From Thermoplasmata archaeon (GTDB lineage Archaea; Thermoplasmatota; Thermoplasmata; Thermoplasmatales; Thermoplasmataceae), in assembly GCA_021794355.1 (NCBI GenBank), contig JAJYRA010000043.1:1-43466 (forward strand): a stretch of DNA of 43,466 nt, in the 5' to 3' direction. Shown in pieces: positions 4,820 through 33,215 of this stretch. The position numbers and the translations under genes were made by a program. Below the pieces are notes generated by a model. It was not told the DNA's origin and searched no databases. It worked only from the letters and a program-made list of their open reading frames with translations. Positions within the stretch are counted from its first letter, which is position 1. The number at the start of each line of letters is the position of its first letter.

Positions 4820-5168
4820 CGCCGTTACTCCCCCTACAACCATCGGTTGCCCCTAAGGAGTTATCAGTCTCAGGGAGACAATCATTGGGAACTCCATCCC
4901 TCTGCACCATGCGGTGTATCTTTCCTGTCACCAAATCAGCGAATTTTATATAAATTTTGTGAGTGATCTTTTTGGGTTCTCCCTTAAAATCTACAGTCTC
5001 AGTGTGTAGGGTACAGTAACTGTTTCATTAAAACATAAGCCAAATCAAGACAAACTAAAATTTCTATCCCGATCTCTCAGGAATTATATTGAAAAAAATA
5101 ACACAAAATCAGGAAATGGGGTTGATGAATAAAATCAACTATGAGATTGGAAATGGGGATGGATATTT
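4820..5168. other. upstream region of the MutS-like pair
   Basis: No gene is seen here. It holds the ribosome site of the MutS-like pair, a TATA-like palindrome at 4945-4954 and, towards 5168, AT-rich sequence downstream of katG. Confidence 0.5.
4945..4954 (-). promoter_or_regulatory. TATA-like box for the MutS-like operon
   Basis: The sequence TTTATATAAA is a strong archaeal TATA-type match, about 125 bases upstream of the chosen start. If used, the transcript has a leader of roughly 100 bases, consistent with the presence of a Shine-Dalgarno site on this gene. Confidence 0.4.
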
Positions 5169-32078: not shown

Positions 32079-32213
32079 ATGGTAATGAAAAAGGACGAAA
32101 ATAATAACAATGTTCCTAAGAAAATTGATCACACATTCCGCTGGAAAAGAGCTTTTTCAGTAATAATTGGAGTGAAGATTATTCTTCTGCTACCATTTCC
32201 ACATGGGCAGTGA
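32079..32213 (+). CDS. possible small membrane protein, 44 aa
   Basis: A TTTATATG box lies about 28 bases before this ATG, as expected for a leaderless transcript. The product has a polar start (MVMKKDENNNNVPKKIDH) and a hydrophobic stretch (AFSVIIGVKIILLLPF). Its 3' end overlaps the convergent yceI gene. It may instead be the truncated start of a transporter. Confidence 0.3.
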   Translation: MVMKKDENNNNVPKKIDHTFRWKRAFSVIIGVKIILLLPFPHGQ

Positions 32214-32721
32214 ATTTAATCTTGCTTCCAACCATAACTTTTCCTGCTTCCAAAACCATGTTCCACTTGAGGCCAAAGTCCTCCCTGGCTATTTCTCCCT
32301 CAATGGACATTCCGGCTCTCGTTTTTCCATAGGGGTCTTTTATTACACCCTCCAGGTCACCCTCAAGTTTTATCTCCTTCGTCACGTTCTTAATGGTGAG
32401 ATCACCGGTGATTATGTGCTTTGTATCATTTACCTTCTTTATGGACTTACTCACAAATTTTATCTCCTTGAATTTTTCCACATCGAAAAAATCAGGTGAC
32501 TTCAGGTGATTATCCCTATCCTTTTCCCTTGTTGAAATGGATGAGGGATCTATGGTAACCTCAACCTTTGCAGCCTCAGGATCCGTATGGGTGCCCAGTG
32601 CAACTATCTCAAAATTCCCGAAATTTCCCTTAACAGTGGAAATCATCATGTGCCTTGCAGAAAATTCTATTTCAGAGTGGGCTTTATCAGAAACCCACTT
32701 TATCTGTTTTTGTTCTTCCAT
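32179..32721 (-). CDS. YceI-family lipid-binding-like protein
   Basis: A 180-aa YceI-domain protein: the N-terminal W-x-x-D-x-x-H-S-x-I-x-F signature (WVSDKAHSEIEF), the HLKSPDFFDVEKFKEIKF block and the ending GLKWNMVLEAGKVMVGSKIK are diagnostic. The fold is an extended lipocalin-like barrel that binds isoprenoid chains. No signal peptide is present, so it is cytoplasmic. It is divergent from an hxlR gene across a duplicated 90-bp regulatory segment, which suggests HxlR control. The ATG at 32721 is close to the promoter and probably leaderless. Confidence 0.9.
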   Translation of the reverse strand: MEEQKQIKWVSDKAHSEIEFSARHMMISTVKGNFGNFEIVALGTHTDPEAAKVEVTIDPSSISTREKDRDNHLKSPDFFDVEKFKEIKFVSKSIKKVNDTKHIITGDLTIKNVTKEIKLEGDLEGVIKDPYGKTRAGMSIEGEIAREDFGLKWNMVLEAGKVMVGSKIKFTAHVEMVAEE

Positions 32722-32881
32722 AATCAGGTATCAATAATACATTAAAATACTTATGGTAACTTGCACTATATTAGATATCATGAAAACAACCTATCTGTTT
32801 CTATTCTTCCATAGATTGGTATCAATAATACATCAAAATACTTATAGTAACTTGCAATATATCAGATACCATGAAAACAAC
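32701..32881. repeat. 90-bp imperfect tandem duplication between yceI and hxlR
   Basis: 32701-32790 and 32791-32881 are similar along their full length: both hold ATCTGTTT...TTCTTCCATA, GGTATCAATAATACAT, AAAATACTTAT, GTAACTTGCA and end ATGAAAACAAC. Copy 1 includes the first codons of yceI, and copy 2 ends in the real start of hxlR. Each copy carries GGTATC about 41 bases from GATATC/GATACC, an inverted pair that could be an operator. Confidence 0.85.
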
Positions 32882-33215
32882 AACTCAAATTGTGGGAGAA
32901 ATTTGTCCAGTTGTGCAAACCATAAAGGTAATTGGCGGTAAATGGGAACTCATCATCATTCGTTACCTGGCGGACAGCCCCATGAGGTTCAACGAGCTTC
33001 TCAGGAACGCGGATGGAATAAGTTCCAGAACCCTGTCTAGGATATTGAAAACGTTAATGGAGAGGGGATTGGTGAAGAGGGAACTCGTATCCATTCAACC
33101 TGTTAAGGTCATTTACTCACTCACGGAGTCAGGCAATGAAATAAAGCCCGTGATTGAGGCTCTCAGGAAATGGGGAGAAAAGAACATTAAAAACCTGAAC
33201 CCAAATGCATATTGA
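32871..33215 (+). CDS. HxlR-family transcriptional regulator
   Basis: A 114-aa winged-helix protein of the HxlR family. The sequence CPVVQTIKVIGGKWELIII near the start is the hallmark, with Cys12 in the position used by redox- or electrophile-sensing members such as HypR. The recognition part is MRFNELLRNADGISSRTLSR and the wing is in the VKVIYSLTESG region. It is divergent from yceI and the duplicated segment spans both starts, so it most likely controls yceI and itself. The duplicate ATGAAAACAAC at 32779 is an upstream copy of its start that reads into ACCTATCTG rather than the gene. Confidence 0.92.
   Translation: MKTTTQIVGEICPVVQTIKVIGGKWELIIIRYLADSPMRFNELLRNADGISSRTLSRILKTLMERGLVKRELVSIQPVKVIYSLTESGNEIKPVIEALRKWGEKNIKNLNPNAY

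Follow-up and report, generated by a model that had tools for sequence, protein, structure and literature searches.

A tandemly duplicated divergent yceI/hxlR promoter in a Thermoplasmata archaeon, with putative decay of each copy toward its distal gene

The promoter region between the divergent genes yceI and hxlR is present twice, in tandem, in the genome of an acidophilic Thermoplasmata archaeon. We propose, at what we consider an even chance of being right, that a single divergent promoter was duplicated once in this lineage and that each copy was then weakened toward the gene lying farther from it. On comparative sequence evidence, we read the duplication as real and accidental, specific to this lineage, and followed by relaxed constraint and a probable partition of promoter function. 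The window analysed is the whole of contig G000:C83 (43,466 bp), from a 2.05-Mb draft genome in 89 contigs (G000; completeness 97%, contamination 0.71%). The features discussed are as follows.

32179–32721, minus strand: yceI (PF04264, 180 aa)
32701–32791, no strand: copy 1 of the 91-bp unit, yceI-proximal
32727–32779, no strand: conserved 53-bp core (putative promoter/operator), copy 1; 38/38 congener-invariant columns kept
32742–32749, minus strand: predicted yceI TATA box, copy 1 (TATTTTAA, -28 to -21 of the yceI ATG); intact; motif model
32749–32756, plus strand: predicted hxlR-directed TATA box, copy 1 (ACTTATGG); predicted weaker by derived A to G at 32755
32780–32941, plus strand: decoy hxlR start with its 53-aa ORF, which runs out of frame across the true hxlR start
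32792–32881, no strand: copy 2 of the 91-bp unit, hxlR-proximal
32801–32812, minus strand: decoy yceI start, copy 2, ATG GAA GAA TAG (M-E-E-stop), ATG at 32812
32818–32870, no strand: conserved 53-bp core, copy 2; 36/38 congener-invariant columns kept, departures at 32834 and 32863
32833–32840, minus strand: predicted yceI-directed TATA box, copy 2 (TATTTTGA); predicted weaker by derived T to C (plus strand) at 32834
32840–32847, plus strand: predicted hxlR TATA box, copy 2 (ACTTATAG, -31 to -24 of the hxlR ATG); intact; motif model
32871–33215, plus strand: hxlR-family regulator (PF01638, 114 aa, N-terminal Cys12)

Tandem Repeats Finder describes positions 32701–32881 as 2.0 copies with a period of 91 (89% matches, score 290). 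The unit carries 21 bp of yceI (7 codons), the yceI–hxlR spacer and 11 bp of hxlR, and the breakpoints of the duplication fall just within the two coding sequences. The initial annotation had described a tandem duplication of the divergent promoter that includes both start codons, and this is borne out by the 91-bp unit and by the families of the flanking genes. It had also put the divergence of the copies at about a tenth, which is right: aligned with MAFFT, the two units differ by 11 substitutions over 90 columns, without internal gaps. Compared base by base, 12 of 91 positions differ and the longest identical run is 16. The window holds exactly two occurrences of the 53-bp core, and 0 of 100 shuffles gave a match. 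The invariant columns of the core, as listed above, are the 38 that show no variation among eight congeners.

Long tandem arrays in G000 are uncommon but not unique, since arrays of period 40 or more number 5 in 521,710 bp (the yceI–hxlR array included) and one in 500,000 bp examined in the congener G009. Further long arrays in G000 lie at L114 8893–10333 (243 bp x 5.9), L131 18401–18843 (231 bp x 1.9, 96% matches), L116 7426–7839 (126 bp x 3.3) and, at a contig end, L126 1–633 (320 bp x 2.0).

Both flanking genes were assigned to their families by domain. The yceI product has the YceI-like domain PF04264 (150.2 bits, cut-off 23.7), and the hxlR product has the HxlR winged-helix domain PF01638 at residues 20–108 (93.4 bits, cut-off 20.8). 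The closest solved structures to the latter are YybR (4a5m, E 3.4e-19), YodB, HxlR and QsrR. Reading of its translation places Cys12 near the N terminus; the reactive N-terminal cysteine of B. subtilis HxlR is Cys11 (PMC7835342). A second HxlR-like gene on the contig (42134–42397, minus strand; 31% identity, E 1.7e-8) is distant from either copy of the core.

Each duplicated gene start has left a decoy. The decoy hxlR start noted in the initial annotation exists, though its ATG is at 32780 and not at 32779. Codon 4 of yceI is CAA in the true gene, CAG in G009 and TAG in the decoy, which we read as a synonymous change in the true copy and a nonsense change in the decoy relic.

The ancestral arrangement was a single copy. 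All eight congeners that have both genes share the identical divergent arrangement with a single 53-bp core, and their projected start-to-start gaps are 49–61 bp. The gap is 58 bp in G009 and 149 bp in G000, a difference of exactly 91. R1, a sequence-only profile of the core built from 9 sequences, finds two matches in G000 and one strong match in each of the eight congeners. Across the family, 25 of 77 genomes match R1 at an E value of 0.001 or below; G000 has two matches and each of the other 24 has one. The filters of this search were stricter than those of the genus search, so that weak second copies could escape it. Among the 26 matching family loci, Tandem Repeats Finder places a repeat at the operator in G000 only. 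Checking copy number in relatives, as the initial annotation had suggested, thus gives a single copy in 8/8 congeners and 24/24 other matching family genomes. Since every relative with a match, at one genome per species, has a single copy, the duplication is derived and, among these genomes, confined to the G000 lineage. The relatives' single copies in themselves say nothing on regulation.

hxlR adjoins the match at 26 of the 26 family loci and yceI is present at 25. Of the family's 19 genera, 9 have the core beside hxlR, and in 8 of these 9 yceI flanks it on the opposite side. This recurrence of core, hxlR and yceI across genera suggests an unstudied regulator–target pair; our literature search found no publication on HxlR, YceI and archaea together. 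When contigs were scanned with the core, one true relative was retained (six short-match alphaproteobacterial loci being left out): a Thermoplasmata MAG, L047, with a single core at 4909–4961 upstream of hxlR. Judged by eye, its other flank is not yceI-like, which would mean that the core travels with hxlR. Viral contigs scanned in the same way gave 0 matches.

We can place the putative promoter elements with a motif derived from the genomes themselves. In 175 regions preceding long ORFs, taken from sampled stretches of both G000 and G009, the sequence is A-rich from -35 to -32 and W-rich from -28 to -24 relative to the start codon. Archaeal genes that are leaderless and carry BRE and TATA elements are expected to look like this. 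A BRE/TATA motif was learned by expectation-maximisation from 172 regions for a first model and 277 or 552 for later models, leaving out those of yceI and hxlR both in the window and in G009, and the coordinates of the copy 1 yceI TATA box derive from its register. Within each unit, the two TATA boxes located by the model abut back to back, and therefore each overlaps the upstream element of the opposite direction. On this model, the unit is a compact divergent promoter. Both yceI and hxlR are probably leaderless, and the start sites that we infer on this basis lie about 58 bp apart within one copy.

The two copies have changed in different places. When the eight congeners serve to polarise the core differences, copy 1 carries the derived changes 32755 A>G and 32766 A>C, and copy 2 carries 32834 T>C, 32863 T>C and 32869 T>C; the equivalent of position 32834 is T in 8/8 congeners. 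Three motif models were used to rank the 159 possible single core changes by specificity: 32755 A>G takes places 1, 2 and 2 toward yceI, and 32834 T>C places 7, 2 and 6 toward hxlR. The changes at 32766, 32863 and 32869 have almost zero effect on motif scores. With all registers scored, the hxlR score falls in copy 1 and the yceI score in copy 2. When the same changes were placed at random, the observed sum was reached in 0.13% to 2.7% of 4,000 trials (8 motif models; p 0.001–0.027), in a test designed after the pattern had been seen and bearing on a partition argument that rests on two substitutions. With the first, smaller motif model the same test gives p 0.005 at registers chosen post hoc and 0.063 at the best register.

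Bootstrapping the motif (60 replicates) separates what is robust from what is not. The hxlR score of copy 1 is lost in 60/60 replicates and the yceI score of copy 2 in 56/60, whereas a gain of yceI score in copy 1 is seen in 50/60 and a gain of hxlR score in copy 2 in 24/60; copy 2 is polarised toward hxlR in 46/60. Losses toward the distal gene are thus well supported in silico and gains are not robust. We rejected the idea that each change also improved the opposing promoter, and claim only losses, because the bootstrap fails the gain in copy 2. Moreover, a low predicted TATA score is no proof of a silent promoter, since three single-copy congeners (G002, G006 and G010) have predicted hxlR TATA scores as low as that of copy 1. 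A general trade-off between directions was likewise rejected: the effects of the 159 single changes on the two directions correlate positively (0.32–0.45), so the antagonism would be confined to two specific sites.

How much of this could be chance? A neutral and recent accident, in which the duplication had no regulatory consequence, the copies drifted freely and the two TATA changes fell where they did by chance, is a serious contender that we rate below the directional decay proposed here. Indeed, the duplication occurs in no other genome compared, and it looks young: 11 of 90 columns differ between copies, against 131 of 196 fourfold sites between G000 and G009 in yceI, hxlR and the neighbouring peptidase gene, which is near saturation. 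Against that background copy 1 of the core differs from G009 at only 5/53 positions and copy 2 at 6/53, and for this reason we regard the core as strongly constrained between species. Yet the two copies differ from each other at 5/53 positions, despite common changes absent from G009. It looks as if constraint was relaxed after duplication, because this intercopy difference is as large as that to another species, and the decoy yceI codons differ from the true ones at 2/21. Core divergence between copies is not appreciably lower than that of the decoy codons, and no purifying selection is visible on the extra copy, as a neutral accident would have it. What such an accident leaves to coincidence is that both promoter-element changes strike the distal-facing TATA box, in the pattern that random placement seldom reached. 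Drift in redundant halves would nevertheless give the same direction without positive selection.

Two HxlR operators in place of one, giving stronger repression or, as the initial annotation had suggested, stronger autoregulation, find no support here and seem improbable to us. The core is kept in both copies, at 38/38 and 36/38 invariant columns, and in the genus it is strong only at the yceI–hxlR locus; because of this restriction it is probably the regulator's own site. Across 12 genomes of the genus R1 reveals no second strong site, the next matches having E 0.026 and 0.032, and we dropped the idea of a regulon beyond this locus. The operator itself had been proposed as GGTATC...GATACC, and that proposal does not find support. 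GGTATC...GATATC arms are conserved and present in both copies, but the dyad is not above alignment column shuffles (70/300 reach it), nor is a direct-repeat half-site (102/200). Furthermore, two invariant positions are gone from copy 2, and we see no sign of selection for two operators. Least probable of all is an assembly artefact joining two strain variants of one promoter. Such an error is conceivable in a draft genome of 89 contigs that is the one assembly of its species analysed, but the 16-base longest identical run between copies, breakpoints in coding sequence with no long common word there, and the completeness and low contamination of the assembly all speak against it. At the word sizes commonly used, de Bruijn paths would not be joined through an identity of 16 bases.

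We return to duplication followed by directional decay, and picture it as follows. One tandem duplication in the G000 lineage would have copied a compact divergent promoter whose TATA boxes adjoin within a 53-bp core. yceI would then be served by the adjoining copy 1 and hxlR by the adjoining copy 2. The distal-facing halves would start transcripts only at decoy ATGs, and each of them may have taken one TATA-box mutation and begun to decay. The change might thereby relieve competition of the two directions over one site. From the gene arrangement, and by analogy with relatives, HxlR likely represses both yceI and hxlR. A bolder version, which we hold only tentatively and think rather doubtful, is that a two-way promoter escaped a built-in conflict: the tandem copies would have become two one-way promoters facing away from each other, with decaying, decoy-ended halves between them, and single changes would each damage one TATA box and possibly improve the opposing BRE. 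For the coli promoters tested, a published study found a value too low for competition.

If this bolder version is correct, the locus offers a natural example of promoter subfunctionalisation in a prokaryote, resolved to the single base. Divergent genes with a promoter in common may have to compete for one site, and directional decay after a tandem duplication would illustrate how that conflict can be resolved in a few steps. At 91 bp and five core changes, the system is short enough for reporter testing of every intermediate. Even if drift alone was at work, the locus would still show cleanly how redundant promoter halves decay. A literature search that covered few subscription journals found no publication dealing with the yceI–hxlR pair or with an archaeal divergent promoter present in duplicate.

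The locus resembles three known systems and departs from each. In Bacillus and Staphylococcus, genes for HxlR/DUF24 regulators often lie divergently to a neighbour that the regulator acts on. Like HypR/YybR, YodB, HxlR and QsrR of these bacteria, the regulator described here has the PF01638 domain, an N-terminal cysteine and a divergent neighbour with which it has a conserved core in common. Unlike theirs, the host is archaeal, the neighbour is yceI, and the putative operator, recognised by conservation, is duplicated. The unit also resembles compact divergent or bidirectional promoters (Warman and colleagues; PMC10268837, PMC12825309), in which one short stretch with overlapping elements serves two opposite genes and polymerase in one orientation can exclude the other. 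Their bidirectional promoters are defined by divergent starts 7–25 bp apart. By contrast, the yceI–hxlR starts would lie outside that range in each copy, if the leaderless starts hold, and here the element is duplicated in tandem.

A conceptual parallel is duplication-degeneration-complementation, in which a duplication is followed by complementary damage and each copy keeps one ancestral task. The yceI–hxlR copies would likewise carry complementary damage, each keeping one direction. Of the marks of a subfunctionalised duplicate, duplication relative to a single-copy ancestor is present (8/8 congeners, 24/24 other matching genomes), and the changes form a pattern that may be one of complementary degeneration (p 0.001–0.027 in 8 models, 0.005–0.063 in the first model; two changes only). 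Unlike in usual subfunctionalisation, the duplicated unit, known here from its sequence, is not a gene but the common promoter itself.
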